From a virus: a DNA stretch of 41,737 nucleotides. This document shows positions 1-27,341 of this stretch, one piece after another. Positions within the stretch are counted from its first letter, which is position 1. Every line of letters starts with the position of its first letter. The position numbers and the translations under genes were made by a program. The notes under the pieces were generated by a model. The model saw only the letters and a list, made by a program, of their open reading frames with translations, did not search any database and was not told where the DNA came from. The stretch is taken from the IMG/VR virus record IMGVR_UViG_3300050821_002945, positions 1 to 41,737 of that record, one strand, 5' to 3'.

Positions 1-99
1 ATGCCAAAATTCGGAAGTAGGTTCCTTTTCGATCAAAACTCCCTTTCCTTCCAATAAACGGATTAGGTTTAAGCGATCACGCCTAGCCTTATCTAGCAA
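1..99 (-). CDS. Small hypothetical protein, truncated by window edge
   Basis: Reading leftward, 33 codons stay open from a TTG at 99 to the window edge; the C-terminus lies outside. The peptide begins MLDKARRDRLNLIRLLEGKG and looks helical and basic at its start. I choose the TTG because the ribosome-binding sequence AAAGGAG (on the minus strand, about 107-113) sits 7 nt upstream, and because the same terminator plus octaloop-hairpin module that precedes the other small leftward genes lies directly before it. No function is recognisable. It appears to be the next member of the leftward small-gene cluster. The start codon is the least certain part. Confidence 0.55.
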   Translation of the reverse strand, partial: MLDKARRDRLNLIRLLEGKGVLIEKEPTSEFWH

Positions 100-116: not shown

Positions 117-136
117 AACTAGGCTTTGGACTAGTT
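117..136 (-). promoter_or_regulatory. Octaloop hairpin, copy 1 (leader of the gene at <1-99)
   Basis: In minus-strand RNA the sequence folds as a perfect 6-bp stem AACTAG/CTAGTT closing an 8-nt loop TCCAAAGC. It lies between a terminator hairpin (147-169) and the ribosome-binding site of the next small gene. Three more copies, with different stems but nearly the same loop, occupy the equivalent place before the next genes. The function is unknown; a protein-binding operator or an RNase processing site is possible. Confidence 0.6.
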
Positions 137-146
137 CTGCGAGTTA

Positions 147-169
147 AAACGCGGCATTTAACCGCGTTT
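147..169 (-). terminator. Intrinsic terminator-like hairpin after the gene at 176-358
   Basis: On the minus strand AAACGCGG pairs perfectly with CCGCGTTT (8 bp, 7-nt loop), and the 3' arm continues into a short U run. It begins 7 nt beyond the stop of the 176-358 gene, so it probably ends or attenuates that transcript before the next gene. Confidence 0.6.
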
Positions 170-175
170 CCATCC

Positions 176-358
176 TCAGTTTGTGAACCCAAAAAGTTCG
201 CTAAGATCGTTCGCGTACTCTGCGAATTGCTGCATTTCTGGCGAAAATTTCGCCCATTCTGCATCGTACTTAGCGCGCAGAATTTCCTTATAACTAGGCT
301 CATAATCCTCACCTAGTTGCTTGGATTCTTGGCGTACTATCCGACCAAATTCTGACAT
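176..358 (-). CDS. Small hypothetical acidic protein (60 aa)
   Basis: A 60-residue protein starting MSEFGRIVRQESKQ, rich in Glu, Lys and Tyr and probably helical; no known domain is recognised. The ATG at 358 is preceded by AAGGATGGTAAGGAA, a usable ribosome-binding site. It is one of five tiny leftward genes, each separated from the next by a terminator hairpin and a second hairpin with a conserved octaloop, so each is probably controlled individually rather than by simple coupling. Phage early regions often hold such small host-takeover genes, but nothing in the sequence assigns a target. Confidence 0.7.
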   Translation of the reverse strand: MSEFGRIVRQESKQLGEDYEPSYKEILRAKYDAEWAKFSPEMQQFAEYANDLSELFGFTN

Positions 359-385
359 TTCCTTACCATCCTTCGTTTATTCCGT

Positions 386-405
386 GAGTAGGCTTGGAAC
401 TACTC
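386..405 (-). promoter_or_regulatory. Octaloop hairpin, copy 2 (leader of the gene at 176-358)
   Basis: In minus-strand RNA GAGTAG pairs with CTACTC around the loop TTCCAAGC; one more A-U pair (406/385) extends the stem to 7 bp. It sits about 30 nt upstream of the ATG at 358 and downstream of the 418-435 hairpin. Compared with the other copies, both stem strands have changed together while the loop is nearly fixed. Confidence 0.6.
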
Positions 406-417
406 ATGCGGTTTATA

Positions 418-435
418 TGGGGCCATCGGGCCCCA
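418..435 (-). terminator. GC-rich hairpin after the gene at 446-808
   Basis: A perfect 7-bp stem TGGGGCC/GGCCCCA with a 4-nt loop starts 10 nt past the stop of the 446-808 gene. It lacks a long U tract (only TATA follows on the minus strand), so it may be a weak terminator or an mRNA end-stabilising hairpin. Equivalent hairpins occur at 866-886 and 1153-1171. Confidence 0.5.
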
Positions 436-445
436 CATCCTCACC

Positions 446-808
446 TTACGCTGCGAGAATTTCCGCGATTTTTTCTGGCGACATCGAAAGCAACTTAGCT
501 GCCAAATCGCCGTTTGTCTTGACGAGTTTTCGGTAGTTGGCGATTGCCTCTTTCCTTGCGGTTTTCTCTTCGTCAGTAAGCTTAACGCGAACTTTCTTAA
601 CGGACTCTGACGTATCGACGGTAATGACGCCATTCTTAGCAACTTTAGCGATTAGACCCGCTTCGTTTGCAAGTTTGGCAATCATCGAAGGAACACCAAA
701 ACCATTCCACAAATCTCCTGCGGTTTTGTGAACTGAAAACGCAACCCTAAAACGCTCCGATGGGTTACGTGGCTTGGCGACCTTGGCGACCTTAACTTTC
801 TTTCCCAT
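446..808 (-). CDS. Basic Ala/Lys/Val-rich hypothetical protein (120 aa)
   Basis: A 120-residue protein beginning MGKKVKVAKVAKPRNPSERF. The N-terminal ~20 residues are strongly basic with repeated KVAK motifs. A central part (about 45-75) reads like a compact alpha/beta fold, and the C-terminal third is a Lys/Glu/Ala-rich helix ending in KIAEILAA. The basic tail suggests nucleic-acid binding, but that is inference; no family is recognised. The ATG at 808 has GGAG 10 nt upstream. It lies in the leftward small-gene cluster between two octaloop-hairpin modules and is the largest gene there. Confidence 0.75.
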   Translation of the reverse strand: MGKKVKVAKVAKPRNPSERFRVAFSVHKTAGDLWNGFGVPSMIAKLANEAGLIAKVAKNGVITVDTSESVKKVRVKLTDEEKTARKEAIANYRKLVKTNGDLAAKLLSMSPEKIAEILAA

Positions 809-835
809 TGCTTTAACTCCTAACCGCTGAATTTC

Positions 836-855
836 GGAATGGCTTAGGACATTCC
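836..855 (-). promoter_or_regulatory. Octaloop hairpin, copy 3 (leader of the gene at 446-808)
   Basis: Minus-strand RNA folds GGAATG with CATTCC, a perfect 6-bp stem, around the octaloop TCCTAAGC. It lies about 28 nt upstream of the ATG at 808, just 3' of the hairpin at 866-886. The loop is identical to copy 4, whereas the stem sequence is unrelated to it. Confidence 0.65.
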
Positions 856-865
856 ATGCGGTTTA

Positions 866-886
866 AATGGCCCGATTTGGGCCATT
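866..886 (-). terminator. GC-rich hairpin after the gene at 895-1086
   Basis: AATGGCCC pairs with GGGCCATT (8 bp, 5-nt loop), starting 8 nt beyond the stop of the 895-1086 gene; the minus-strand 3' side continues as TAAACC. Its placement matches the hairpins at 418-435 and 1153-1171, all of which have GGCCC-type stems. Confidence 0.5.
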
Positions 887-894
887 CCTTCACC

Positions 895-1086
895 TTAATG
901 TAGGTATTTCTCTTCGAATTGAAATACCCTTGCTTTTTCGTTTTCCACATACCTGATTTCGTTTTCGGGTAGTGGGCCATTGGAGAGTTTTTCTAGAAAA
1001 CCCATCCGGTTAATCATCGCCAGTCTGACTAAATGCATTTCGGATTCAGTCAGGTAATGGCTTAGAATGTCTGACTTTGTAATCAT
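895..1086 (-). CDS. Small hypothetical protein (63 aa)
   Basis: A 63-residue protein beginning MITKSDILSHYLTESEMHLV, charged and predicted helical by eye, with no recognisable domain. The ATG at 1086 follows ACTAGGACGGTAAAGCCA. The 10-mer ACTAGGACGG recurs before the 1386 start and again at 2209-2218 with no gene after it, so it looks like a shared ribosome-binding or leader element. Part of the leftward small-gene cluster. Confidence 0.7.
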   Translation of the reverse strand: MITKSDILSHYLTESEMHLVRLAMINRMGFLEKLSNGPLPENEIRYVENEKARVFQFEEKYLH

Positions 1087-1121
1087 TGGCTTTACCGTCC
1101 TAGTTCATGCTAAACGCTATC

Positions 1122-1141
1122 GATCAGGCTTAGGACTGATC
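1122..1141 (-). promoter_or_regulatory. Octaloop hairpin, copy 4 (leader of the gene at 895-1086)
   Basis: Minus-strand RNA pairs GATCAG with CTGATC (6 bp) around the loop TCCTAAGC, 35 nt upstream of the ATG at 1086 and downstream of the hairpin at 1153-1171. This is the fourth member of the series. Confidence 0.65.
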
Positions 1142-1152
1142 TAGCGGTTTAA

Positions 1153-1171
1153 TTGGCCCACATCGGGCCAA
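1153..1171 (-). terminator. GC-rich hairpin after the gene at 1180-1386
   Basis: TTGGCCC pairs perfectly with GGGCCAA (7 bp, 5-nt loop), 8 nt beyond the stop of the 1180-1386 gene. On the minus strand it is followed by TTAAACCGC, the same trailer (AAACCGC) seen after the hairpins at 418 and 866. It probably acts as a transcript end or attenuation point. Confidence 0.5.
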
Positions 1172-1179
1172 CCCTTCAC

Positions 1180-1386
1180 CTATTCGCCGTCGTGAGCGTA
1201 CTCACAAATCAGACAATCGCCGTATTCGCCGTATTGATTTGCGTTAGTGGGATGTCCGCATGAGCGAACATAACCGAACGATGGGTCAGTCATCATTACT
1301 GACCATTCCGATTCGGTAAACCGAACCTCTTCCCTACCATCGGAATATTCGGTTACTAGGTCATCTTCGAACGTTTTGTAAGCCAT
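1180..1386 (-). CDS. Small acidic, putative zinc-binding protein (68 aa)
   Basis: A 68-residue acidic protein beginning MAYKTFEDDLVTEYSDGREE. The C-terminal part carries the Cys/His pattern SCGHPTNANQYGEYGDCLIC (about residues 42-61), with CGH and CLIC spaced like a small zinc knuckle; metal binding is inference. The ATG at 1386 is preceded by ACTAGGACGGTAAGAA, sharing its 10-mer with the neighbouring gene. It is the first gene of the leftward small-gene run; upstream (1390-1600) only structured DNA is seen. It could be an early regulator, but nothing shows a target. Confidence 0.7.
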   Translation of the reverse strand: MAYKTFEDDLVTEYSDGREEVRFTESEWSVMMTDPSFGYVRSCGHPTNANQYGEYGDCLICEYAHDGE

Positions 1387-4231: not shown

Positions 4232-4469
4232 GTTGTAGTTTGTCCCAAGGTACTGAAAATTGTAATATCCTATCTTTTCTTAATTTTTCGAGTCTAAGTT
4301 TTTCAAACTCTTCTTCATTCATAAGTGTGGTTACTTTAAAAGTTTGATTAGGATAATACTTAAGAAAATCTTCTATTTCTTCTGCTTTACAAAGAGTCTC
4401 CAAAACAATCATAGTATCTGGATATTCGATTCCACTAGATTGAACAGCTTTAATATGATATACGATCAT
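4224..4469 (-). CDS. Hypothetical protein (81 aa)
   Basis: An 81-residue protein beginning MIVYHIKAVQSSGIEYPDTM. The pattern of a strand, then helix-rich Glu/Lys sequence (NEEEFEKLRLEKLRKDR), suggests a small alpha/beta protein; no family is recognised. Its ATG (4469) overlaps the TGA of the methyltransferase gene (ATGA), indicating translational coupling within the leftward operon. It lies between the sugar-modifying genes and small zinc-binding proteins. Confidence 0.65.
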   Translation of the reverse strand: MIVYHIKAVQSSGIEYPDTMIVLETLCKAEEIEDFLKYYPNQTFKVTTLMNEEEFEKLRLEKLRKDRILQFSVPWDKLQRV

Positions 4470-5143
4470 TTAATTAAATCTGTCCTTATGAACATTACAT
4501 CGTTATGTGAAACAATAGGGCTGTCGCGGGTAAAACCTCTTTTTTCAAGCCAGTTAGTAATTTCTTGTCCCGAAGCCTCTCCGTTCCATAAAGGAGTCTC
4601 AGAACACTCAATCATTAAATATTTCATTTGATATATATATCTTCCGAAGCCCTCCAAGACCTGAAGTTCCATTCCTTGTACGTCAATAACTAAGGTGTCG
4701 TAAGGCGCAAGGGCCCAATCGTTAATTCCAACCCAATCATCAAATCTTGAACACACAACCATCTCTTCGGCTGTTTTGGTATTTGGAATCCAACCCATCT
4801 TTATTGCATTTTCGGCCGGAATTTGACCTAAACCAGTTGCTCCCTTTGTGTCCCATACTCCGTTGAATTCAGAAACAGTCATTTTTAAAGCTTCTGATTT
4901 ATTTCCAAGAGCGCAGTTTGAAATGTAAACCTGTCCGGAGGCAATTTCAGGAGCATAATTTTTCAAACAAGCCATATATGCGCTATATATAGGTTCAAAT
5001 CCTAAAACTGGCAAACGGCCAACGTGCCAGTACCAAGTGATCTCTTCACCGTCATTCATACCTACATGAATGACTCCATGTAATTTGTAGCCCTTTTTAA
5101 TAAAATGGTCTTCCTTTCCATATCCAAGGGGTGCGCGTGGCAT
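4466..5143 (-). CDS. FkbM-family SAM-dependent methyltransferase (copy 1, 225 aa)
   Basis: A 225-residue Rossmann-type methyltransferase of the FkbM family, whose members usually O-methylate sugars or glycan ends. The SAM-binding motif I is HVGMNDGEE (residues 26-34, usually HVGAN.G), followed by the acidic motif GFEP (about 48-51). The family signature YDTLVIDVQGMELQVLEGFG lies near residues 148-167, and MIECSETPLWNGE follows. It is clearly paralogous to the protein at 19036-19704 (shared DVQGMEL..L.GFG and ECS.TP). The gene starts 1 nt after the glycosyltransferase stop, suggesting the two modify the same glycan. The target is unknown. Confidence 0.85.
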   Translation of the reverse strand: MPRAPLGYGKEDHFIKKGYKLHGVIHVGMNDGEEITWYWHVGRLPVLGFEPIYSAYMACLKNYAPEIASGQVYISNCALGNKSEALKMTVSEFNGVWDTKGATGLGQIPAENAIKMGWIPNTKTAEEMVVCSRFDDWVGINDWALAPYDTLVIDVQGMELQVLEGFGRYIYQMKYLMIECSETPLWNGEASGQEITNWLEKRGFTRDSPIVSHNDVMFIRTDLIK

Positions 5144-5144
5144 T

Positions 5145-5675
5145 TTAGTCCTTTAAGGATTCAATCCTTTTCTTTTCTGTGTAAGAAACTCCGATTTTAT
5201 GGTGGAATCTTACTTTGTCTGAAATAATTACTTCTTCTTTTGGAATTGAATGACACCAATCATCTAATAAATCTCCGTTAGGCATTGGATATTTTTCTAA
5301 AAGTTGTCTATCTACTACAGCACAAAAACTTAGGAATCCATCATATGTGGAATTATCATCTGATTGTCCACAAACAAACTTATTTGGAATACAAAGAGAA
5401 CGCATAGTTCCTTCAAGAATGGTTACGTCAGAATCTAACATTCCAATGTAATCGCCAGAAGCCACCTTACAACCTAATCTAAGATTTCCAGCGTGGCCCA
5501 ATCTTTTATGAAAAAGATAAGTATCAGCTACTATTCTTAAAAAATATTGTGATCCCCCATCTTCAGAGATAACAAGTTCATCACACATACCTCTGACTTG
5601 ATTTGATAAATGCAAGGCCATACGTGCCAATTCGATTGAGCCAGACCAAGTAGGAATAACAATAGAAAGAGTCAT
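5145..5675 (-). CDS. GT2-like glycosyltransferase, short (176 aa)
   Basis: The 176-residue sequence has the GT-A start MTLSIVIPTWSGS, then LVISEDGG, and the metal/nucleotide-binding DxD-type motif GMLDSDVTILEG (near residue 100), followed by DDWCHSIP. At 176 residues it is shorter than typical family 2 enzymes and lacks a long acceptor domain, so it may be a minimal transferase. Known family members move a sugar from a nucleotide donor. It is followed without a gap by an FkbM methyltransferase. AAAGGAAAA precedes the ATG at 5675, just after the tRNA gene. Confidence 0.8.
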   Translation of the reverse strand: MTLSIVIPTWSGSIELARMALHLSNQVRGMCDELVISEDGGSQYFLRIVADTYLFHKRLGHAGNLRLGCKVASGDYIGMLDSDVTILEGTMRSLCIPNKFVCGQSDDNSTYDGFLSFCAVVDRQLLEKYPMPNGDLLDDWCHSIPKEEVIISDKVRFHHKIGVSYTEKKRIESLKD

Positions 5676-5696
5676 AGTTTTCCTTTAAATAAATAG

Positions 5697-5766
5697 TTCC
5701 AGAGGTAGGATTCGAACCCACACTACTTGATCCAAAATCAAGCCGCCTACCATTAGCTACTCTGGA
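5697..5766 (-). tRNA. tRNA-Gln (anticodon TTG)
   Basis: A 70-nt cloverleaf: 7-bp acceptor TCCAGAG/CTCTGGA with discriminator A, a short D arm with AATGGTA in the loop, anticodon stem CTTGA/TCAAG with loop TTTTGGA (anticodon TTG, reading CAA), 4-nt variable loop, and T arm GTGGG-TTCGAAT-CCTAC with one G-U pair. CCA is not encoded. It lies inside the leftward operon between a small gene ending at 5768 and the glycosyltransferase start at 5675, so it must be excised from that transcript. It may supplement decoding of Gln CAA codons, frequent in the phage genes. Confidence 0.93.
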
Positions 5767-5767
5767 A

Positions 5768-5875
5768 TTAAACTATCTTTTCGCAACGAGCGCAATAAAC
5801 CCCAAATCTAGTTCTAGGGTCGTGTCGCCAGTCGTGGTCAATCAGTAGACAAATTATCAGTTTTAGAAGTTTCAC
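5768..5875 (-). CDS. Small CxxC protein (35 aa)
   Basis: The reading frame ending at TAA (5768-5770), 1 nt before the tRNA, encodes ..LIDHDWRHDPRTRFGVYC followed by ARCEKIV. The layout of a hydrophobic N-terminus, then HDW, then CxxC, is common among tiny phage proteins of unknown function. The best start I see is GTG at 5875 (MKLLKLIICLL), overlapping the upstream gene by 38 nt; the ribosome-binding site is weak. The two Cys could bind metal with the His residues. Too short for reliable family assignment. Confidence 0.45.
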   Translation of the reverse strand: MKLLKLIICLLIDHDWRHDPRTRFGVYCARCEKIV

Positions 5876-6092
5876 TTGGCTTCATTTTGTCTAGTAACTC
5901 ATTTCGTTGAACTTCTGTCATACCTTCGGCGTCTGCTGGTTTTGTTTGAACTTGACCCCAAGCTGTTAAATATGGACAGTTTACTTGATGTCCGTGATAC
6001 ATCTGACAATATGGGCAAGGTTGACTGTTTGCATGAGCCTCGTCAGCCGCTCTTACGATATCTTCAGGACTTTCACTTTTCTGTTTTGGCAA
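5838..6092 (-). CDS. Putative zinc-finger hypothetical protein (84 aa)
   Basis: An 84-residue protein beginning MPKQKSESPEDIVRAADEAH. Residues about 26-41 contain CPYCQMYHGHQVNCPYL, a CxxC..HxH..C arrangement suited to one zinc ion. The C-terminal half is polar (Lys/Ser/Thr/Asp). The ATG at 6092 overlaps the upstream gene by 20 nt. No family is assigned. It is one of several Cys/His-rich small proteins in this operon, which may mediate protein or nucleic-acid contacts. Confidence 0.7.
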   Translation of the reverse strand: MPKQKSESPEDIVRAADEAHANSQPCPYCQMYHGHQVNCPYLTAWGQVQTKPADAEGMTEVQRNELLDKMKPSETSKTDNLSTD

Positions 6093-6330
6093 TTAAATCT
6101 CCTATACGAATTATTCCATTGTCGTTGAATTTCCAGCGACCAGTATATTCATGGTCACCAGGACACTCTACACAGAATATCTTACCTTCCCACCAAACTT
6201 TACATTGATTCTTTTCAATGGCGTGTTGAGTAAATTGCTTAAGGAAGGTACTAATAGGAATTTGATTAACCAAAGATGTCTTTAATACGCTGTGTAGGGG
6301 TTGGGGCGTTAATATTTTGTTGGTCGCCAT
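6073..6330 (-). CDS. Hypothetical protein (85 aa, or 66 aa from a later TTG)
   Basis: Starts at ATG 6330 (GAGG about 10 nt upstream), overlapping the upstream gene by 65 nt. A TTG at 6273 would give a 66-residue form with only 8 nt overlap, more like its neighbours. The core WWEGKIFCVECPGDHEYTGR (with CVEC) followed by WKFNDNGIIRIGD looks like a small beta-rich zinc ribbon. No family is recognised. The start choice is undecided because neither site has a strong ribosome-binding sequence. Confidence 0.6.
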   Translation of the reverse strand: MATNKILTPQPLHSVLKTSLVNQIPISTFLKQFTQHAIEKNQCKVWWEGKIFCVECPGDHEYTGRWKFNDNGIIRIGDLIAKTEK

Positions 6331-6460
6331 GTGTATGTGGCCTCAAACTTTTTAAAACGTTATTTGCTTCATACTCAGAGGTTCCTTCCCAGAGAATCTC
6401 ATGAGTATCTTCTTCTTCGATTCTAAACTTACCTTCCAATTGAATCAATCTGATCTTCAT
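6266..6460 (-). CDS. Hypothetical protein (64 aa)
   Basis: A 64-residue protein beginning MKIRLIQLEGKFRIEEEDTH. The pattern of beta hairpin, then WEGTSEYEANNVLKSL helix, then a polar tail ending QRIKDIFG, suggests a small folded domain; it is not recognised. Its start overlaps the preceding gene by 32 nt and its tail overlaps the next gene, so the region 6266-6330 may be coding in two frames. Confidence 0.6.
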   Translation of the reverse strand: MKIRLIQLEGKFRIEEEDTHEILWEGTSEYEANNVLKSLRPHTHGDQQNINAPTPTQRIKDIFG

Positions 6461-6770
6461 GGTCTAATCCTATATCATTCCCAAGAAATGCGTTTACTAA
6501 TTGTTTCATGAGTAGGGTGTGTTTTTGAAGTTCAATAAGAATTTCTTCTTCAATTGAAGTAGGAACAGGAGAATCTATAGCTTCTCTGAGAAATATAGAG
6601 TTTTTACGCAAGGGAGATAAAGGAGGGCCAAGTAAGGTAGACGAATTTTCTTTAAGTTGAACTGGAACCGTTACAACATCAGTATTTAATAATTCAGGTG
6701 GAGTTTTAGTATTTGCTGTTCCACTTGCACCTGTCATTCGGGCCAATAACTCTTCCTTAGTTAGAGACAT
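6429..6770 (-). CDS. First gene of leftward operon; MSLTKEELLARM-type protein (113 aa)
   Basis: I start this gene at ATG 6770 (not the longer frame back to 6914) because AAGGAGAGCAAGG lies directly upstream. The N-terminus MSLTKEELLARM closely matches MGLSKEELLKRM of the protein at 40414-40740, and both leaders contain ATATAAGGAGA, so the two are related or share a short functional tag. The middle is Pro/Ser/Thr-rich and the C-terminus (IEEEILIELQKHTLLMKQLV) is a probable coiled coil. Function is unknown; the match to a gene beside the lysin hints at a virion or assembly role. Confidence 0.7.
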   Translation of the reverse strand: MSLTKEELLARMTGASGTANTKTPPELLNTDVVTVPVQLKENSSTLLGPPLSPLRKNSIFLREAIDSPVPTSIEEEILIELQKHTLLMKQLVNAFLGNDIGLDHEDQIDSIGR

Positions 6771-6795
6771 CCTTGCTCTCCTTATATATGTGAGT

Positions 6796-6867
6796 GGGTC
6801 GGGGGGAAAGTGGAAGCGGGGGCTTCTCTTCATCCTGGTTGTTACATCAAGGCCCCCGACCCGTAAC
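6796..6867. promoter_or_regulatory. Nested competing inverted repeats in the divergent promoter region
   Basis: GGGTCGGGGG (6796-6805) is perfectly complementary to CCCCCGACCC (6853-6862). CGGGGGC (6817-6823) competes for the same arm (GCCCCCG, 6852-6858). GTTAC (6841-6845) also pairs with GTAAC (6863-6867). The block lies in the 160-bp gap between the leftward gene starting at 6770 and the rightward gene starting at 6932, where promoters for both directions are expected. A weak leftward candidate (TTGAAC at 6915-6910, 18 bp, TAGCAT) is present. Confidence 0.45.
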
Positions 6868-6931
6868 AAGTATACAACAAGTGGTATGCTATTAGTATGA
6901 AATATATCGTTCAATATTTAAGGAGAGGTTA

Positions 6932-7225
6932 ATGGCGGATTTTCCAGTTGCGGTTCCACCAGGAACACCACAAGTTGATAGAGCCTATCTAGAAGTTCCA
7001 CAAGACGAAACCCCACCCTCTTCACCGGATGATCCGCCTGTTAAATTTGTTGAACCTAAATTACTTCATATTATGGTTAAGGTAGATCAAAAACCACTTA
7101 TGACTGCGGTTGATAAGGCTATAAAGGAAAATGATATTCAAAGAGTTATTAGTCTTTTTAATAATGGAAAATTTGTAGCTGAACGTGCAGGTGAGATGTT
7201 GGTAAACGTGGTGATGAAACCTTGA
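6932..7225 (+). CDS. Hypothetical Pro-rich-N-terminus protein (97 aa)
   Basis: First gene of the rightward operon. AAGGAGAGG ends 4 nt before the ATG, a strong ribosome-binding site. The first ~40 residues are rich in Pro and acidic residues (PQDETPPSSPDDPP). Residues about 45-97 look like a folded alpha/beta unit (HIMVKVDQKPLMTAVDKAIK). No family is recognised. It is translationally coupled to the phosphatase-like gene through a TTGA overlap. Confidence 0.7.
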   Translation: MADFPVAVPPGTPQVDRAYLEVPQDETPPSSPDDPPVKFVEPKLLHIMVKVDQKPLMTAVDKAIKENDIQRVISLFNNGKFVAERAGEMLVNVVMKP

Positions 7226-7557
7226 AGTATCTCTGTGTTTGTAATGGAGCCCATGTTCGATCCGTAACTCTCGCACGTTTGTTGAATAAGCGTGGTTTTG
7301 AAGTACTCACTTGTGGAGTGGATTCAGATTTTAGTGATGATACTATTAAGATGTTATTTAATTGGGCTGATAAAGTATATGTTCTTGGTGGCGATAGTCT
7401 TGCTAAGTTAATGAAACGAAACGTACTTACAAATGAAACTTCTGGAAAAATCGACCATACAACATTTAATGTTGGATTAGATGACTGGAAAGTTCCTCAA
7501 CATCCAGAATTGCTTAAATTACTAAGGGATAGATGTATTCAGGTGTTTGGACAATGA
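7222..7557 (+). CDS. Low-molecular-weight protein tyrosine phosphatase-like protein (111 aa)
   Basis: The N-terminus MKYLCVCNGAHVRSVTLARL contains the phosphate-binding loop CX5RS (Cys7, Arg13, Ser14) after a hydrophobic strand, as in low-molecular-weight phosphatases and the COG4551-type predicted tyrosine phosphatases. Near the C-terminus GLDDWKVPQHPELLKLL matches the Asp-containing loop plus helix that supplies the general acid in this family. At 111 residues it is the size of the short COG4551 type. TTG start at 7222 overlaps the previous stop. The substrate is unknown: a phosphoprotein, phosphosugar or signalling compound are all possible. Confidence 0.75.
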   Translation: MKYLCVCNGAHVRSVTLARLLNKRGFEVLTCGVDSDFSDDTIKMLFNWADKVYVLGGDSLAKLMKRNVLTNETSGKIDHTTFNVGLDDWKVPQHPELLKLLRDRCIQVFGQ

Positions 7558-7754
7558 GAATTACAATTGAGATTCCAGATAGTTGGCCGAAGGGGAAAGA
7601 TTGGAGAGCGTCTGGATTAATGAAGTGCGAAAAGGATGGATGCAGTTTTATTACTCCTGATGCGGGAGCCTTTTTAAATCACCTTTATCAAGTTCATCTG
7701 ATGGATGAACTTACTAAACCAGATTTACCAGAAACACTCACTACCGCTCCATGA
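7554..7754 (+). CDS. Single C2H2 zinc-finger protein (66 aa)
   Basis: I start at ATG 7554, which overlaps the preceding TGA (ATGA). Residues 25-48 fit C-X4-C-X12-H-X4-H exactly (Cys25, Cys30, His43, His48), with hydrophobic Phe and Leu at the usual core positions, so a classical C2H2 finger is likely. A short N-terminal segment (MRITIEIPDSWPKGKDWR) precedes it. Single-finger C2H2 proteins are uncommon in bacteria but known in phages; DNA or protein binding cannot be decided. Confidence 0.7.
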   Translation: MRITIEIPDSWPKGKDWRASGLMKCEKDGCSFITPDAGAFLNHLYQVHLMDELTKPDLPETLTTAP

Positions 7755-7846
7755 TTTTTTGGATTGTTGGAATTGTTGGGTTCATTTTATTGTTGATTGT
7801 GGTAGGGATATGGATATACGTAACCTTCTTTCATCCAGTAGGATAA
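7751..7846 (+). CDS. 31-residue single-pass membrane peptide
   Basis: ATG at 7751 overlaps the zinc-finger gene stop (ATGA) and runs to TAA at 7844-7846. Of 31 residues, about 25 are hydrophobic (FWIVGIVGFILLLIVVGIWI), giving one membrane helix with a short tail FFHPVG. Tight coupling with its neighbours supports it being real despite its size. Function is unknown; membrane targeting of neighbouring products or altering the host envelope are guesses. Confidence 0.6.
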   Translation: MIFWIVGIVGFILLLIVVGIWIYVTFFHPVG

Positions 7847-8139
7847 AAAGATTCTTATGGTTAGTGTTTTTCCGAAGATGGTTTCAACGAAAGAGACTTG
7901 GAACTTTTTGGTGTGATAAACATTGGAAGGTTATAGAAAATTCTCAACTTGATCTACAACCAATTGATCCTGCCATTGCTGCGGCAGGAATAGCCGCTGC
8001 TTTGTATTTAAAGGGAATTGAACCAGAGTTTGTTCGAAAAAATGGAACAGCCTGTTGTATACTTAATACAATGAGTAAGTCGTTAAATTTGTTAGACGGA
8101 ATTTTTGAAAGATCAAGAGGATGGATACCAATAAAATGA
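7810..8139 (+). CDS. Hypothetical protein (109 aa; start uncertain)
   Basis: The frame is convincingly coding in its second half (FWCDKHWKVIENSQLDLQPI, then DPAIAAAGIAAALYLKGIEP). I use ATG 7810 with AGGG close upstream; this overlaps the small membrane-peptide gene. GTG at 7864, beginning just after that gene's stop, would give 91 residues and may be preferable. The basic N-terminus (RRWFQRKR) followed by CDKHW could be a metal or nucleic-acid contact. No family is recognised. Confidence 0.6.
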   Translation: MDIRNLLSSSRIKRFLWLVFFRRWFQRKRLGTFWCDKHWKVIENSQLDLQPIDPAIAAAGIAAALYLKGIEPEFVRKNGTACCILNTMSKSLNLLDGIFERSRGWIPIK

Positions 8140-8384
8140 CTGATAGTAACCGTAAGACTGAAGAAGTTGCTGACCCGGCTACTGGTGAAATTATCACTAT
8201 TGATATAACAGGGCCCTCACATATGCCAGATACTATTGATTATTCTAAAATTCCAGAGGGAAAGGAACCAGAGGTTTTTGATCAGAATACTGGAATGAAT
8301 ATGCCAGATAAAGTTCCTGATGATCGTATTAACACGGATGATGTTTTTGATGAAACGATACGAGATACATCTTCTAAAGAATAA
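8136..8384 (+). CDS. Acidic, probably disordered hypothetical protein (82 aa)
   Basis: ATG at 8136 overlaps the preceding TGA (ATGA); an ATG at 8121 would add five residues. The protein is strongly acidic, rich in Asp, Glu, Pro and Thr (DPATGEIITIDITGP; KVPDDRINTDDVFDE), with little hydrophobic core, so it is probably extended or disordered. No family is recognised. It sits just upstream of the terminase genes; a DNA-mimic or adaptor role is possible but unsupported. Confidence 0.65.
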   Translation: MTDSNRKTEEVADPATGEIITIDITGPSHMPDTIDYSKIPEGKEPEVFDQNTGMNMPDKVPDDRINTDDVFDETIRDTSSKE

Positions 8385-8541
8385 TTTAAAACCTTGGTTT
8401 AAGGTTTATGGTGACGGAGTTCGTTTTGGTGTGGGTAGAATTCAATTTTTAGTTGGTGGGAAGTCAAAGTTGGGAATTTGGTGGTTAAAGAAAAACAATA
8501 CACTTTGGACTATAGTGGATTTTGGATATAAACCTAACTAA
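8350..8541 (+). CDS. Small basic beta-rich hypothetical protein (63 aa)
   Basis: ATG 8350 with GGATG upstream gives 63 residues, overlapping the previous gene by 35 nt. Sequence GVRFGVGRIQFLVGGKSKLG followed by IWWLKKNNTLWTIVDFGYKP suggests a small antiparallel beta fold with a basic surface. No family is recognised. It overlaps the start of the small-terminase gene by 20 nt. Confidence 0.55.
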   Translation: MKRYEIHLLKNNLKPWFKVYGDGVRFGVGRIQFLVGGKSKLGIWWLKKNNTLWTIVDFGYKPN

Positions 8542-9160
8542 TCTTGCACAAGAACTTGCAGAAGAAGAACATCCAGAACTCTTACCCAAGACACCTGGAC
8601 ATAAAATGGTTCAGAAAACTGCAAGTCTTACTGCATTTGCTCAAGGTGTTCGCGCTCTCGATTTACGAACCAAAGAAGGTCTTACCTGGGCCCAAGTCGC
8701 AGAACGAATGGGTTTACGAAACGCATCAAGTGCTTATAGTCTTGCTTCACGGGCTAGAGTTAAATTAGATGTTGAATCGAAAGTCGATAAGCGTTTTATT
8801 CAGCGTCAGCGTCTTGAGCGTATGTATATTGCTCTTGAGCCCAAAATTGCGGCAGGGCGCGAACGTGCTGTTGAAGTCGCGGTCAAAATACTTGAACGTG
8901 AAGCACGTCTAGAAGGTCTTGATTTAGATGGGCAAACACAAGAAGGAAATCGACAGGCCATTGTTATCAACGTCCAACCCCACCCCGACGATATCGAAGC
9001 AAGAAAATTCGTCATTGAGCATCAACCCAAACTTTTACCTGCACCAATTGAAGGCGTATCACTCGAAGAAGAGATTCATTCCTCTGATCGGGGGAACGGG
9101 AGCGGGGAAGACTTGGTTCGCCCCGTATTGGATTCTGAAACATCTGATGGAGCCAGGTAA
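8522..9160 (+). CDS. Terminase small subunit (TerS, 212 aa)
   Basis: TerS recognises phage DNA for packaging and hands it to the large subunit. The predicted helix-turn-helix is at about residues 52-80 (GLTWAQVAERMGLRNASSAY). A long helical stretch (RAVEVAVKILEREARLEGLD) matches the oligomerisation helices of terminase small subunits. TTG at 8522 is used because no ATG fits; it overlaps the previous gene by 20 nt. The C-terminal third shares 233 nt with the large-subunit frame, including the DNA that encodes the Walker A motif there. The true C-terminus is as annotated by the stop codon. Confidence 0.8.
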   Translation: MDINLTNLAQELAEEEHPELLPKTPGHKMVQKTASLTAFAQGVRALDLRTKEGLTWAQVAERMGLRNASSAYSLASRARVKLDVESKVDKRFIQRQRLERMYIALEPKIAAGRERAVEVAVKILEREARLEGLDLDGQTQEGNRQAIVINVQPHPDDIEARKFVIEHQPKLLPAPIEGVSLEEEIHSSDRGNGSGEDLVRPVLDSETSDGAR

Positions 9161-10268
9161 AAGATGTCTTGCAATTGGCATGGGCTATCAAAAACATGTC
9201 GAGCGCGTGATGATGTGGACTTTAGAGCAGTTCTTTAAGCAATACAAGATTCCATATACACCCAATAGATCAACTGCAACATTCACTCTCTTCAATGGCT
9301 CTCAAATTATTTTTGGTTCTAGTGAGAATCCAGAGTCACTTGAGGGCCCTCACGTTGATTGTGCGTGGATAGATGAAGCAGGATATATGCCACGTCTTGC
9401 TTGGGATGTTGCAACTCGTCGTACCGATTATCAGGAAGGGCCAATTCTTATTACAAGTGTCCCTTATTATCTAAATTGGCTTAAGACTGATCTTTACGAT
9501 GAATGGATTAAGGGCGATCAAGATATTGATTGGATTCATTGTCGATCTGCTGATAATCTAAAATATAGTCAAACAGTTCTTGAAAGGGTTAAAAGGACAA
9601 GAAGGCCAGAATATTATGAAATTTATTATGAAGGTAATTTCGCTCGGCCTTTTGGCCTCATATATGGCGATCCTCCTAATGATTCTATTGTGGTCGATTC
9701 TGAATCTCTTTTTCCCAACGGGATACCTAATGATTGGCCTTGTTACTCTGGACATGACTTCGGAATTAATAATCCTAATGCCGGTGTATGGGGCCGTCTT
9801 GCTCCTGATGACACTTTATATATTGTTGCGGAATATCAAGCCCCTGAATTAACGATGAAATCTCATGTTGAAAGATGGCGTAGGGCAGGTTTGGATAATA
9901 CGGATCAATCTTTTGGTGATCCCGCTGGTGCAGATCAAATGCTTACTGCCGCAGAAGAAGGTTTTAATATTGAGAAAGCAAATAATGATATATTATTTGG
10001 AGTTGATCTTGTTTATGATCGGTTTAAAACTGGTCGTCTTAAGATACTTAGAGGATGTAAAACTCTTCTTGACTATCGTTCTTTGTATGTTTGGAAAAAG
10101 AACCCCAAGAATGAAGATGAGTTAATGGATCAACCTGAAAAACCTCAACCATCCGAACACATGATGGATGCTCTAAGATATCTTTGTACGGGTATTTTCG
10201 AGAATGTTGCTGGAAACACCGATAACAATACTCCCGAGTTGAGGATAAGAAGAAGAAACGTTGCCTGA
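8928..10268 (+). CDS. Terminase large subunit (TerL, 446 aa)
   Basis: The ATP-driven packaging motor and headful nuclease. Walker A is GGTGAGKT (residues 55-62), Walker B is CAWIDE (145-150) and a coupling motif ITSVP lies at 175-179. The RNase H-like nuclease has acidic residues at HDFG (Asp277), GDPAG (Asp331) and MDALRY (Asp414). The upstream sequence LHQLKAYHSKKRFIPLIGG is the usual TerL lead-in, so the protein must begin well inside the TerS frame: ATG 8928 is used, with TTG 8961 or 9015 as alternatives. The length is normal for the family. Confidence 0.93.
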   Translation: MGKHKKEIDRPLLSTSNPTPTISKQENSSLSINPNFYLHQLKAYHSKKRFIPLIGGTGAGKTWFAPYWILKHLMEPGKRCLAIGMGYQKHVERVMMWTLEQFFKQYKIPYTPNRSTATFTLFNGSQIIFGSSENPESLEGPHVDCAWIDEAGYMPRLAWDVATRRTDYQEGPILITSVPYYLNWLKTDLYDEWIKGDQDIDWIHCRSADNLKYSQTVLERVKRTRRPEYYEIYYEGNFARPFGLIYGDPPNDSIVVDSESLFPNGIPNDWPCYSGHDFGINNPNAGVWGRLAPDDTLYIVAEYQAPELTMKSHVERWRRAGLDNTDQSFGDPAGADQMLTAAEEGFNIEKANNDILFGVDLVYDRFKTGRLKILRGCKTLLDYRSLYVWKKNPKNEDELMDQPEKPQPSEHMMDALRYLCTGIFENVAGNTDNNTPELRIRRRNVA

Positions 10269-10608
10269 GAATATACTTCAGAGAAGTATAAAAAGATTAC
10301 GTCCTGGTTCTGGTGGACCGACTCAAGCCATTTCAATTGTTGATGGCCCAACAAGTAGATCGGGTGATTTTTCTACAGGTTTTAAGAGAGCAACACAAAC
10401 TGATGAAGATTTTGACGATATAAAGAGCGGACAGCCACTTGCGTTATCCAATGAATTATCGGTAGCTTCAAATATTCTTCCTGCGCCAGTTGGATTATTG
10501 GCAGGGGTTGACCCAAATGATCCTGATAAAAGAATTCCATTTCATCAACCAGATGATCCTCAAGTTTTGTATCGATTATTTGGACTACGTGGAATGTCAG
10601 ACGAGTGA
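10261..10608 (+). CDS. Hypothetical protein between terminase and portal (115 aa)
   Basis: TTG at 10261 overlaps the TerL stop by 8 nt. The 115 residues are polar with many Pro, Gly and Asp (RPGSGGPTQAISIVDGPTSR; GVDPNDPDKRIPFHQPDDP), lacking obvious secondary structure until the end (QVLYRLFGLRGM). No family is recognised. Position in the packaging operon suggests a virion or assembly role, but there is no direct evidence. Confidence 0.65.
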   Translation: MPENILQRSIKRLRPGSGGPTQAISIVDGPTSRSGDFSTGFKRATQTDEDFDDIKSGQPLALSNELSVASNILPAPVGLLAGVDPNDPDKRIPFHQPDDPQVLYRLFGLRGMSDE

Positions 10609-10611
10609 TTA

Positions 10612-10827
10612 ATGGCAAATTATCGTATATCCTTTGTCCTGGTTGGAGGATCGGATAAACGAATTCATATTGCGGTTAGGGGTGATGAATTCACTTTTTG
10701 TAAAACAAAGATGGAAACCTTTCATCAACTTGTAAATCTTACTGAAATTAAGAAGTTACCATTTTGTAAGACTTGTCAAGAGGCGTATCATGAACGAAGC
10801 GAAAGGAATTTTGCAGTAATTAACTGA
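10612..10827 (+). CDS. Small Cys-containing hypothetical protein (71 aa)
   Basis: A 71-residue protein beginning MANYRISFVLVGGSDKRIHI, with a probable N-terminal beta sheet and three Cys residues (FCK, then FCKTCQEAYH) with a nearby His that may bind zinc. Its stop codon overlaps the portal start (TGATG), so it is coupled to portal translation. No family is recognised. Confidence 0.65.
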   Translation: MANYRISFVLVGGSDKRIHIAVRGDEFTFCKTKMETFHQLVNLTEIKKLPFCKTCQEAYHERSERNFAVIN

Positions 10828-12617
10828 TGATAAATTTTACTCCACCAGGAACAGAAGGGGCCAGACCAACTCTTGATGCATCTGTACTTATGCCCAGGAG
10901 AAATCCTGGATTAATTGCACGTATTGCAGATGCAATTTTTAGATCACAACCCACAACTGGCCCTCAACCTGAAGATCAAGAAACAAGTGGTACGGGTGTT
11001 GTTTCTGAAGGTCTAGTTTCTCTCTATGATCGTCAGTTTAAGTTTGATGTCACCCGCAGGGCCACATATAAGGACGTAGAGGAAATTGACCAAGCTTCAG
11101 AGGAAGCGTCTGTTGCTCTAGACACTATCGCCAATAATGTTTGTACGTCAGAAGATGGCGTTCAAATGTCATTTCAGGTTATGGCGAAAGATTCAAAGGC
11201 TCAAGCTGTTTTTGATAAGGTTATTCAGACCTCTAAGTTACACCAAAAGATTCAATATATAGTTCGTAATCTTGTTAAGTATGGTGACTTTTTTGGTGAA
11301 GTAGTTGTTAATGCTGCTCTAGAAATTGTAAACATTAAACCACTTCCCCCAATCACGGTATTTAGAAATGAAAACCTAGCAGGACATCTTTTAGTTGGGG
11401 AACCAAGGTATGACAAGAAATCAGGCAAAGTACAAAACGGAAGTGAAGAATGTGCGTTTGAGCAAAAAGCTGAGTCCACAGGAAATCTTATTGCTACATT
11501 CTGGCCCTGGCAAATTCTACATATACGACTTAATCATGACGGATTCTCTCCGTATGGTCGAAGTCACCTTCGGGTTGCAAGGGTTACTTACAAAAAACTT
11601 AAGGCAATTGAAGAAGGACTTATTGTTGGGCGGTTAACTCGTGAGTACCAGAAACTTATTTTCTATGTAGATACTACAGGTCTTTCAAAAAAAGAAGCAA
11701 GCGTTGCATTAACTGAGTTTCAACAAAATGTAGTGCAGCGTGTTCATGTTGATGGTCGTCGTGAAAATCCATTCTCAGTAATGACAGACTTTTTCTTGAC
11801 TACTGGATGGATCAAGATTGGAACTCAAGTTCAACCACGTAAAACTTCTATCGATATTATTGATCCTAAGAATGTAGGAATTCACGACATAACAGATGTT
11901 GAATATCTACATCGTAAATTTCTTGCTGCATTACGTGTTCCTCCTGCTCATATGGGATTTGAGAAGGATGTTAATGCCAAGGCCACCCTAACCATTCAGG
12001 ACGTTCAATATGTCCGAATGCTTAGAAATATTCAGCAACTTGTTGGTCATGGATTAGAGCAGGTATTTGATACTGCTCTTGTTCTTGCTGGAATGGACCC
12101 TGAGCAAGTTGATTATGAAATTGCGTGGCCTGCACTTGTAGCTACAGATCAAATGAACTCTGCACAAGCAGAATTGTGGAGGGCTCAGAAGTTTCAACTC
12201 TACAGCACAGTTATGCATGTTGTTGATGATATGTGGATACAGCAACATGAATTTAATATGACTGATGAAGAAATTAAAGAAGTTAATGAGCGAATTGCCG
12301 TTCAACAGCAACAGCAACAGGCTCAAGCAGCCCAAGACGCACAAATGGATACAAATAGACAAGTTGATCTTATTAAAGCTAAAGCACAAGTTGGTGGTTT
12401 TCAACGTAAAGCTGAAGATAAAACCGTGCAGGGCCGCGTGAATCGTCACTCTCCTGGTGAAGATGATGTTCCGGCTCAAGGAAATCCAAATAAGGATATT
12501 GGAGCAGAATCCAAGATACTTGCACGTATTCTTGCTGGTAATGTAACTGATTTAGTAACTGAAGACCTTTCTCGTGTACTTAAGTCTCTATCCTTGAATG
12601 GAACTTCGCATGATTAA
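10827..12617 (+). CDS. Portal protein, T4 gp20-like (596 aa)
   Basis: The portal forms the dodecameric ring at the capsid vertex, the channel for DNA and docking site for terminase. Matching features of T4 gp20-type portals include EQASEEASVALDTIANNVC near the N-terminus, and the segment running through IDIIDPKNVGIHDITDVEYL, HRKFLAALRVPP and KATLTIQDVQYVRMLRNIQ, equivalent to the gp20 region around EIEDIEYF..KLYRALNVP. A Gln/Ala-rich stretch (VQQQQQQAQAAQDAQ) near residue 495 begins a polar C-terminal tail. The ATG overlaps the preceding TGA. About 600 residues is the usual size. Confidence 0.88.
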   Translation: MINFTPPGTEGARPTLDASVLMPRRNPGLIARIADAIFRSQPTTGPQPEDQETSGTGVVSEGLVSLYDRQFKFDVTRRATYKDVEEIDQASEEASVALDTIANNVCTSEDGVQMSFQVMAKDSKAQAVFDKVIQTSKLHQKIQYIVRNLVKYGDFFGEVVVNAALEIVNIKPLPPITVFRNENLAGHLLVGEPRYDKKSGKVQNGSEECAFEQKAESTGNLIATFWPWQILHIRLNHDGFSPYGRSHLRVARVTYKKLKAIEEGLIVGRLTREYQKLIFYVDTTGLSKKEASVALTEFQQNVVQRVHVDGRRENPFSVMTDFFLTTGWIKIGTQVQPRKTSIDIIDPKNVGIHDITDVEYLHRKFLAALRVPPAHMGFEKDVNAKATLTIQDVQYVRMLRNIQQLVGHGLEQVFDTALVLAGMDPEQVDYEIAWPALVATDQMNSAQAELWRAQKFQLYSTVMHVVDDMWIQQHEFNMTDEEIKEVNERIAVQQQQQQAQAAQDAQMDTNRQVDLIKAKAQVGGFQRKAEDKTVQGRVNRHSPGEDDVPAQGNPNKDIGAESKILARILAGNVTDLVTEDLSRVLKSLSLNGTSHD

Positions 12618-13770
12618 CGAGAAAGACCTTACTTTAAGTGATGTCATAAGTGATACTGCTCAGATATTAGCGGGTCGTTTACGATCTCAACTTAAAGAGA
12701 TAGAAGATGCAGGTAAGGCTCTTAAAGCTGAAGTTGCTCATGTTAAAGATTTACATCAAAAGGATATTCAATATTACATTGGTGAAATTGCTGGTTTAAA
12801 AGAGAGTAATCAACTTCTTCAGGAACGAGTTGCGGAATTTTTACCTCGACCCCCTGAACATCAACATGATCCAGATGAACCAAACGCAGTTTTTACTTTC
12901 GATCAGGATGGTACTTTAAAACCTCAAGTTTCCCAAGGAGATGGTGGAAATTATCCTATTTTAGAAGTTCCATTTCCTAATGTTAAAAAATGGTTAGACC
13001 GATGGACAGCAAGAAAGGTCTGTATTCATCTTGCTACTGCTGGTCTTTATTATGGTGGGCCCCAAGATTTAGAAATTTATATGGCAAGACTTGAAATGCT
13101 TAAGTCTTGGGCTATGGCAAATGGTCTTCCTATAACTTGTTATCTTCCTAAAATTCCTTCAGATATTTATTATGATGATCGTATGATTGTTATTCCTGGT
13201 GACCCCACCCTCAATAGGAAGAAGAATTCCAAATTTGTTCCTGATTGGGATGCAATCGGCATGTTAGTTGAATCAGATATGAAAAAGAGATTTGATTTAG
13301 TTAATGGTGAGTGGATTCGTCAACCTAAAACAAGAGTAGGAAAGGAAATTGATGATTGGCCTAGTGTAGAAGATTATCCAAAAGATTTTCCTCGTGGATA
13401 TTCTGGGCCGCGAATTGATGTGGATATGCATAGAACTCTTTCTCTTGCCTCTTCAAGTTTACGATTAGCACCCCCTAGACCCGGTGCGCGAGAAGCCCTT
13501 ATAATTCTCTTTAATGGCGGAATAACAATTCGTATTTCTTGTGCGGGTTGGAATCCTAAAACTCATACAAAAAGTGACGCCGATCGTCGTTTAGCGGCAA
13601 TCAGACAATGGTTGTTAGAAAATAGCATTCCTTATGATAGAATCGTTACCAAAGATCATGCTGACCTGTATTTTGATGATAAAGGTTTTAGATTTACTTC
13701 ATGGGAAACTGATTTACCAGGAATTCAGAAGCGATTACCAGAGGAAGAGTCATACAGGCATGGAGATTAA
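12610..13770 (+). CDS. Tandem HAD-like phosphatase-domain protein (386 aa)
   Basis: ATG 12610 overlaps the portal stop and has GGAAC 7 nt upstream; an ATG at 12598 is less likely. Residues 1-~80 form a coiled coil. Two HAD-type units follow. Unit 1 has TFDQDGTLK (Asp98, Asp100), LATAG (Thr143), Lys181 and YYDD (Asp189/190). Unit 2 has IDVDMHRTL (Asp270, Asp272), ISCAG (Ser310), TKDHADLYFDD (Lys348, Asp356/357). Both keep every HAD motif residue, so both may be active phosphatases. The family acts on phosphosugars, nucleotides or polynucleotide ends; the substrate here is unknown. It sits between portal and head-protease genes. Confidence 0.75.
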   Translation: MINEKDLTLSDVISDTAQILAGRLRSQLKEIEDAGKALKAEVAHVKDLHQKDIQYYIGEIAGLKESNQLLQERVAEFLPRPPEHQHDPDEPNAVFTFDQDGTLKPQVSQGDGGNYPILEVPFPNVKKWLDRWTARKVCIHLATAGLYYGGPQDLEIYMARLEMLKSWAMANGLPITCYLPKIPSDIYYDDRMIVIPGDPTLNRKKNSKFVPDWDAIGMLVESDMKKRFDLVNGEWIRQPKTRVGKEIDDWPSVEDYPKDFPRGYSGPRIDVDMHRTLSLASSSLRLAPPRPGAREALIILFNGGITIRISCAGWNPKTHTKSDADRRLAAIRQWLLENSIPYDRIVTKDHADLYFDDKGFRFTSWETDLPGIQKRLPEEESYRHGD

Positions 13771-25857: not shown

Positions 25858-26178
25858 TTGGCAATCAGCCCTTATGTGATTGGGAATACTCATACAAAAT
25901 GGTTACTTCCATTTGTAACTGATTCTGCGATTGTAGATTTAACAGGGGCCACACTTAAACTACGTATTCTACGTCCAGATAATACCGCTCATGATGGAGT
26001 TAATGTCCCTAGTATTTTGGGAGCCCCAACTTTGGGTCAAGTAAATTATCTAGTGGATGTGGCTGATTTTCCGGTTGTAGGTACTTATACACTTCAGATA
26101 CAAGCTGATTATGGTGGCTCACCTGATTCTTTGACTGTTTCTGATGCATTTCTACTTACAGTAAATACGAAGATTTAA
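25858..26178 (+). CDS. BppU-like N-terminal domain protein, baseplate/fibre adaptor (106 aa)
   Basis: TTG at 25858 with AAGGAAA upstream. The 106-residue sequence with DLTGATLKLRILRPDNTAHD, then LGQVNYLVDVADFPVVGTYT, matches the Ig-like beta-sandwich that starts BppU/DUF2479 baseplate proteins, which attach receptor-binding proteins to phage tails. Here it stands alone without a C-terminal module. It probably anchors the long repeat fibre encoded just upstream. TAATG overlap couples it to the aminotransferase. Confidence 0.7.
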   Translation: MAISPYVIGNTHTKWLLPFVTDSAIVDLTGATLKLRILRPDNTAHDGVNVPSILGAPTLGQVNYLVDVADFPVVGTYTLQIQADYGGSPDSLTVSDAFLLTVNTKI

Positions 26179-27341
26179 TGATTCCTTTATTCGCGGTTCA
26201 CATGCCTACGACTGTTGATAAGCCACTTCTTGATGTTCTTCATTCGGGGTACATAGGACAAGGGAAGAAAGTTGAAGAATTTGAAAAAGCACTTGGTCAA
26301 TATATAGGAAATGAAAATGTACTCACGGTTAATTCTGCAACATCTGGCTTGGAACTTGCGCTTGTTTTATCGGGAGTTAATTTTGGGGATGAAGTTATTA
26401 CTTCACCAATGACTTGTATGGCAACTAATACTCCGATTATTTCTCGGGGAGCCATTCCGGTTTGGGCAGATGTTGATCCAGATACGGGATTAATTGATCC
26501 TCTTGATGTAGAGAGAAAGATCACCAAGAAAACCAAAGCCATAATTGCAGTACATTGGGGCGGTCTACCGTGTGACCTGTTGGCCCTGGCAGGCGTAGCG
26601 ACCGCTTACGGCCTCCCGTTGATCGAGGACGCCGCCCATGCCTTCGGGAGCCGCTATGGGCATCGTAGGCTTGGGGATCAAACTCTTCAAATGCAACAAG
26701 TTCCACACTTTACTGTGTATTCATTTCAAGCAATTAAACATATAACTACAGGTGATGGTGGGGCTGTGTTTTGTTCTAGAAGTGAAGATTACAAACGTGG
26801 AAAATTACTTCGCTGGTATGGCATAGATCGAGAAGTAGAACGAAAGGATATGCGTTGTGAAGAGGATGTAATTGAGTCAGGATGGAAGTGGCACATGAAT
26901 GATATTAATGCCACAATCGGAATAGTTCAACTTAATTATATCGATGGGGTTCTCAAGGCCCAACGAGAGAATGCACTTTATTACTATGAACATTTAAGGG
27001 GGCCATCTCCCGCTTTTCCTAAAGAATCCCTTCAATCAACCTATATGCAAAGTTCCTTTTGGTTATATACAATTCTTTGTAATGATGAATCTGAGCGTAA
27101 TGAATTTATGGGATTTATGAATAAAAAAGGAGTGATGGTAAGTAAAGTACATACAAGGCATGATACCCATACAGCTTTCGCTCCATTTAGAAAAAGCCCA
27201 CTTCCAGGTGTAGATTCTTTTTCTGATAGACATATTTCAATTCCTGTTCATTGGGCTTTAACTACACGGGAGAGGGATCATATTGTGGATTCTGTTAATT
27301 CATTTTATGAGAGTAGACAAAGGATAGAAAAAGATGCTTAG
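26178..27341 (+). CDS. DegT/DnrJ/EryC1/StrS-family sugar aminotransferase (387 aa)
   Basis: A PLP enzyme that places an amino group from glutamate on a keto nucleotide-sugar. Visible motifs are GYIGQGKKVEEFEKALG (start), VNSATSGLELAL, the Asp of IEDAAHAFGS that binds the PLP ring, and SFQAIKHITTGDGGAV with the Schiff-base Lys. The length is normal. Followed by a GNAT acetyltransferase, a familiar pair for making N-acetylated amino sugars. Bases 26561-26670 around the EDAAHAFGS motif are about 67% G+C, far above the rest of the gene, suggesting patchwork ancestry. Confidence 0.9.
   Translation: MIPLFAVHMPTTVDKPLLDVLHSGYIGQGKKVEEFEKALGQYIGNENVLTVNSATSGLELALVLSGVNFGDEVITSPMTCMATNTPIISRGAIPVWADVDPDTGLIDPLDVERKITKKTKAIIAVHWGGLPCDLLALAGVATAYGLPLIEDAAHAFGSRYGHRRLGDQTLQMQQVPHFTVYSFQAIKHITTGDGGAVFCSRSEDYKRGKLLRWYGIDREVERKDMRCEEDVIESGWKWHMNDINATIGIVQLNYIDGVLKAQRENALYYYEHLRGPSPAFPKESLQSTYMQSSFWLYTILCNDESERNEFMGFMNKKGVMVSKVHTRHDTHTAFAPFRKSPLPGVDSFSDRHISIPVHWALTTRERDHIVDSVNSFYESRQRIEKDA

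Follow-up and report, generated by a model that had tools for sequence, protein, structure and literature searches.

The window analyzed here is the whole 41,737-nt stretch of IMG/VR record IMGVR_UViG_3300050821_002945 (positions 1 to 41,737). At its left end lies a run of five leftward small genes, and all four junctions between these genes (4 of 4) hold an RNA unit that, judged from sequence, belongs to the twister class of self-cleaving ribozymes. The features of the run, in 5' to 3' order, are:

1180..1386, minus strand: small gene A, 68 aa, no Pfam match; stop codon TAG (1182-1180) overlaps the first base of ribozyme 1
1122..1180, minus strand: twister ribozyme 1, type P5, 59 nt; RF02684 44.3 bits (1124-1180), descriptor match, own covariance model 68.1 bits
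Parts of ribozyme 1, minus strand: P2 1180-1178/1148-1146 (GGU/ACC); GA 1177-1176; T1 AGG 1175-1173 with CCU 1134-1132; P1 hairpin 1172-1152; predicted cut between U1151 and A1150; T2 GC 1145-1144; P4 1141-1136/1127-1122; L4 1135-1128
895..1086, minus strand: small gene B, 63 aa, no Pfam match; stop codon TAA abuts ribozyme 2
836..894, minus strand: twister ribozyme 2, type P5, 59 nt; RF02684 41.1 bits (838-894), descriptor match, own covariance model 68.0 bits
Parts of ribozyme 2, minus strand: P2 GGU/ACC; T1 AGG 889-887 with CCU; P1 hairpin 886-866; predicted cut between U865 and A864; P4 855-850/841-836; L4 849-842
446..808, minus strand: small gene C, 120 aa, no Pfam or PHROGs match; stop codon TAA abuts ribozyme 3
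386..445, minus strand: twister ribozyme 3, type P5, 60 nt; RF02684 42.2 bits (388-445), descriptor match, own covariance model 65.6 bits
Parts of ribozyme 3, minus strand: P2 GGU/ACC; T1 GGA 440-438 with UCC; P1 hairpin 437-416; predicted cut between U415 and A414; P4 405-400/391-386; L4 399-392
176..358, minus strand: small gene D, 60 aa, no Pfam match; stop codon TGA overlaps ribozyme 4 by 2 nt
117..177, minus strand: twister ribozyme 4, type P5, 61 nt; RF02684 46.4 bits (119-177), descriptor match, own covariance model 59.9 bits
Parts of ribozyme 4, minus strand: P2 GAG/CUC; T1 UGG 172-170 with CCA; P1 hairpin 169-147; predicted cut between U146 and A145; P4 136-131/122-117; L4 130-123
1..99, minus strand: probable gene E, cut off at the contig end; open frame with a TTG start (99-97) behind AAGGAG

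Relative to the start of ribozymes 1 to 4, the stop codon of the preceding gene ends at -1, 0, 0 and -2 nt. Adjoining this leftward operon, positions 1440-2900 form about 1.4 kb without a convincing gene on either strand, with a GC content slightly above the rest; no Rfam family reached its cut-off there. Elsewhere the window carries a tRNA-Gln gene with anticodon TTG (5696-5766, minus strand) and glycan- or sugar-related genes at 4466-5675 (minus strand), 12598-13770 and 26178-27341 (both plus strand), a set that includes an FkbM methyltransferase, a family 2 glycosyltransferase, a protein end resembling phosphoheptose isomerase and an aminotransferase.

The four minus-strand units are, by sequence and predicted structure, type-P5 (circularly permuted) twister self-cleaving ribozymes of 59-61 nt each, with cleavage predicted. 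The RF02684 matches listed above come from a low-filter Rfam scan; all four exceed the gathering score of 37.6, with E-values of 9e-8 to 2e-6 in a 3.5-kb search, well outside what chance would produce. Our own covariance model, whose seed includes three of the four units, scored them at 59.9-68.1 bits as against 9.3 bits for the next best site, and found no further unit elsewhere in the whole window. Run over the entire window, the default fast Rfam scan picked up a single one of these units and missed three above-threshold twisters; twister arrays are easily overlooked by standard scans and are therefore probably under-annotated. Weak Rfam matches to freshwater-2, RsaD and istR lay below their cut-offs and were disregarded.

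An earlier note on this DNA had described minus-strand hairpins at 117-136, 386-405, 836-855 and 1122-1141, and these exist exactly as stated, with perfect 6-bp stems and 8-nt loops. Each is the 3' half of a unit that reaches upstream to 177, 445, 894 and 1180, respectively. On both strands the window contains 54 hairpins of this stem and loop geometry, and a TYCNAAGC loop together with the common upstream block is confined to these four.

Read from its 5' end, each unit comprises one strand of P2 (GGU or GAG), GA, a T1 triplet, a closed P1 hairpin of 8-9 bp and UAA with the predicted cut after its U, followed by the P2 partner (ACC or CUC), GC, a 7-nt stretch that opens P4, G-U, the second T1 triplet, AAGC, C and the P4 partner. 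P1, P2 and P4 stand in the P5 order in all four window units, with P1 closed and the ends lying beyond P2 and P4, and the descriptor finds the core features GA, UAA, the L2 GC and G-U-NNN-AAGC-C in every one. Pseudoknot T1, which joins L1 to L4, consists of three Watson-Crick pairs out of three in each unit and occurs as three different types (AGG/CCU in units 1 and 2, GGA/UCC in unit 3, UGG/CCA in unit 4), its upstream triplet lying about 40 nt before the loop; pseudoknot T2, between the GC of L2 and that of L4, is GC/GC in all four. The twister L4 is known for an essentially invariant closing G-C pair, a U-A pair, three letters given to T1 and two given to T2 (PMC5408937), and the window octaloops are L4 loops with every such feature. 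The claim of fully different stems around a fixed octaloop has to be given up in both its parts: the loop-closing G-C pair is identical in all four copies, as the twister fold requires, and the loop itself varies (CCA, UCC, CCU, CCU), each variant matched upstream (by UGG, GGA, AGG and AGG).

The units thus share with RF02684 a score above the curated threshold in four of four cases, stems P1, P2 and P4, both pseudoknots, the U-A cut site, GA, the L2 GC and the L4 letters; they differ in having a 3-bp P2 and no evident P5 stem. The Rfam consensus has a P2 of 4 bp, and a 3-bp P2 is also present in 68 of 98 related units (see below). Flanking sequences gave no sign of a conserved P5 stem, with pairing of 10.49 versus 10.33 for shuffled partners among 88 units. 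Because stem P5 is optional in twisters (PMC5408937) and absent from the Rfam model, its lack is compatible with membership. Minimum free energy folds of units 1 and 3 with their flanks favour other pairings, as computed by a method that cannot model pseudoknots.

Searches of IMG/VR with four exact patterns, one per T1 type, returned 2, 23, 37 and 25 stretches. A descriptor blind to T1 then gave 98 units in the window and these loci, with T1 forming three Watson-Crick pairs in 98 of 98, and these include four T1 types outside the searched patterns. With a covariance model built from 17 units, T1 and T2 left out, 137 units were found in 20 loci. T1 is fully Watson-Crick in 131 of the 137; the loci were picked by T1-specific patterns, so that this count is fully independent only for units outside the pattern selection, and among the 19 units whose T1 type was in no scan it is fully paired in 13. 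T2 likewise shows two-sided changes in the relatives (GC/GC, AC/GU, GG/CC, CC/GG and CU/AG), and GA is present in 136 of 137 units. In the drawn structure 98.1% of cells are paired, a share that falls to 59.9% with shuffling and to 51.4% or less with sliding, and all four helices show two-sided changes (134 distinct rows). P1 ranges from 5 to 14 bp across the related units and is mostly 7-10 bp. One locus (L105) is unusually diverse, its five neighbouring units having five T1 types (GGA, UGG, UGA, GUA and GUG). The earlier proposal of a selected RNA structure with compensatory stem changes is borne out by this covariation, and the further copies in other phages that it had named as a test occur in dozens of phage records.

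The related units repeat the arrangement seen in the window. Across the 137, 126 start between -12 and +19 nt from the stop codon of a same-strand ORF; in the earlier set, 74 of the 98 descriptor units start between -3 and +10 nt from such a stop, compared with 5.8% of random positions. In 81 of 117 intervals between neighbours one ORF occupies at least 60% of the space, P4 is followed by the downstream start codon at a median distance of 28 nt over the arrays, and no array locus has units on both strands. Counts of RF02684 matches over whole records reach 20, 14, 11, 9, 9 and 9, and 14 control genomes contained no such unit. The 20 type-P5 units of the largest set are divided between both ends of a single 90.6-kb record (L094 and L095) and probably form one continuous block that the contig ends interrupt; another record (L058) carries 14 tandem type-P5 units within 5.7 kb (5672-11422, plus strand), with a single gene in most intervals. 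Genes within arrays encode a DNA helicase, a DNA methyltransferase, an ATPase and a relative of SprT-like proteases, and most have no known function. At E 1e-6 the window has no ORF in common with the loci found by pattern; among themselves, the array loci share few genes except for two pairs (L096/L097 and L106/L107). The same layout of one ribozyme per gene recurs in many phages without a detectable gene shared with the window phage. In bacterial genomes, searched with the T1 GGG/CCC pattern only, there were six matches, two of them Rfam-supported (in Poribacteria and Nitrospira metagenome-assembled genomes) and four not twisters by Rfam. Four tandem units are found in L089 (2055-2978, plus strand), which is catalogued as a Poribacteria metagenome-assembled genome and is possibly a prophage or phage contig.

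Close relatives of the window phage at the DNA level were not found, nor were relatives via the terminase or gene C. The closest structural relative is a contig with a 72% identical major capsid protein and a 59% identical portal. It has one unit near the contig end, at 33.7 bits and thus below the gathering score; as in the window, the unit and the structural genes are on different strands. No units were detected in three shorter relatives, contigs that cover part of the genome, or in seven isolated phages with related genes, searched as whole genomes. Given how sparse the units are in these relatives, they are probably gained and lost quickly within the phage group.

Taken together, type-P5 twisters at all junctions would very probably allow a polycistronic phage RNA to cleave itself into mRNAs of one gene each, bounded on either side by a hairpin. 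From the computed properties of the units, namely family identity, pseudoknot covariation, stop-codon position, one gene per ribozyme and recurrence, we infer cleavage in the cell and its benefit. Each nascent ribozyme would fold from the stop codon of the preceding gene, forming P1, P2, P4, T1 (L1-L4) and T2 (L2-L4), and would cut itself between the U and the A just 3' of P1 to yield single-gene mRNAs. The predicted cut is accordingly not in or near the octaloop, where the earlier note had proposed to look for it, but just 3' of the upstream hairpin. The upstream mRNA would keep the closed P1 hairpin, predicted to fold at -13 to -16 kcal/mol, as a stable hairpin at its 3' terminus, ending in a 2',3'-cyclic phosphate soon after the stop codon. 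The downstream mRNA would start with a 5'-OH, with the P4 hairpin 9 nt from the end and the start codon 46-64 nt in. A likely gain would be mRNAs whose stability is fixed and similar and which are translated independently, without a host or phage nuclease.

P1 is dispensable for twister cleavage (PMC5408937). That it is nevertheless kept at 5-14 bp suggests a role after cleavage, most simply protection of the 3' end. With the ribozyme starting at the stop codon, its 5' strand must lie under any ribosome that is terminating there; as a guess, cleavage may be delayed until the ribosome is released and so be gated by termination. Structure prediction also raises the idea that the leader might refold into an extended 5' hairpin after the cut, which shows clearly in unit 2 and less so in the other three.

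The position of the ribozyme start at or inside the stop codon, with its 5' strand under the terminating ribosome, would suit active ribozymes that serve to lower or time expression, for example by stop-codon-gated cleavage that exposes mRNAs to decay and is held back as long as the ribosome sits on P2 and T1; 5'-OH ends can mark or alter decay. We regard this reading as possible but doubtful: a long perfect P1 and a retained P4 place hairpins at both new ends, which suggests protection. The 5'-OH and 2',3'-cyclic phosphate ends expected from the ribozyme class are also RtcB-type substrates, and freed mRNAs might be circularised or tied end to end by an RtcB-type ligase, or by reassembly of half-ribozymes at an mRNA's two ends; T1 and P2 are identical throughout several arrays, so that hybrid ribozymes could form. 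Neighbours are compatible in 83 of 117 cases (71%), however, compared with 713 of 986 (72%) of all within-array pairs, and in the window in one of three neighbour pairs, and this reading appears quite unlikely. The same comparison gave no signal of selection for or against pairing of neighbouring half-ribozymes, whether for end-tying or for avoidance of cross-talk.

Repeated intergenic hairpins with a common loop had led the earlier note to propose an operator for an RNA-binding regulator or processing sites like those of T7. That the units are operators, or nuclease sites such as those of RNase III, is very unlikely. The variable letters of the loop change together with a far-off triplet, as expected for twister T1, and T2 covaries too, which a protein operator would not require; the units also score above the cut-off of a ribozyme family, and this identity would make RNase III cleavage unnecessary. 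In place of an operator we find a self-cleaving ribozyme from an established Rfam family, and of the T7 comparison the processing of RNA between genes survives as the best functional reading, the protein-cleaved site giving way to the Rfam ribozyme. The preceding terminator-like hairpins correspond to twister stem P1, part of the same element as the octaloop hairpin. Their GC-rich sequence directly past the stop codons would be in keeping with intrinsic terminators, the octaloop hairpins then being separate leader elements. We consider this exceedingly unlikely, as P1 is followed by UAAAC or UAACU instead of a U-tract, no terminator-like site was called at any of the four hairpins, P1 lies within the ribozyme model, and the triplet flanking it pairs with the octaloop. 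Self-cleavage of a polycistronic RNA by twisters remains our preferred reading.

In phage T7, the polycistronic early mRNA is cut between genes by RNase III to give hairpin-ended mRNAs. The process proposed for the window resembles it in the cutting of polycistronic phage RNA between genes and in the hairpin-ended products, but the window units are predicted to be cut by the RNA itself without a protein, and the two are not the same kind of site. A precedent is provided by clusters of prophage hammerhead ribozymes flanking single genes, reported in 2011, which cleave in vitro and for which single-gene processing was proposed; one triple array cleaves in E. coli (PMC3088659). Both systems place several self-cleaving ribozymes beside individual phage genes, with cleavage shown for the hammerheads; these are of another class, with few units per tested array, whereas as many as 20 twisters occur in a record, in most cases with one to a gene. 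Gut phages likewise encode self-cleaving RNAs, the HDV-like theta ribozymes, but these have another fold and are linked to suppressor tRNAs, not to runs of protein genes (PMC10879173).

Within the twister class itself, what sets the window units apart is their setting, four in a row, each at a stop codon and one per junction. Twisters are reported to be enriched near Mu-like phage genes and other ribozymes, for a reason given as unknown (Roth 2014 and Weinberg 2015, as cited in PMC10085705). The window units share with these the association with phage genes and with further self-cleaving ribozymes, and a stop-codon layout of one gene and one ribozyme goes unmentioned in such secondary accounts of the two papers, as far as these extend. 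In the literature searched, whose reach stopped short of Roth 2014 and Weinberg 2015 themselves, arrays with a twister in each gene junction are not described. Twisters are a known class of RNA, and phages offer a precedent in their tandem hammerheads; the gene-by-gene twister layout may be new.

The role of twisters in bacteria and phages has been described as unclear or unknown (PMC5408937, PMC10085705). Dense stop-codon arrays, in phages that share no detectable genes with the window phage, point to a concrete job, the cutting of polycistronic phage RNA. We hold it to be an evenly balanced question whether this represents a general, so far unrecognised phage layout, in which a stop-codon twister at every gene would yield hairpin-capped single-gene mRNAs, with type P5 favoured for the P1 hairpin it leaves at the 3' end and with gating by the ribosome possible. 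The layout makes the question of twister function directly testable, in a fragment of 1.4 kb.
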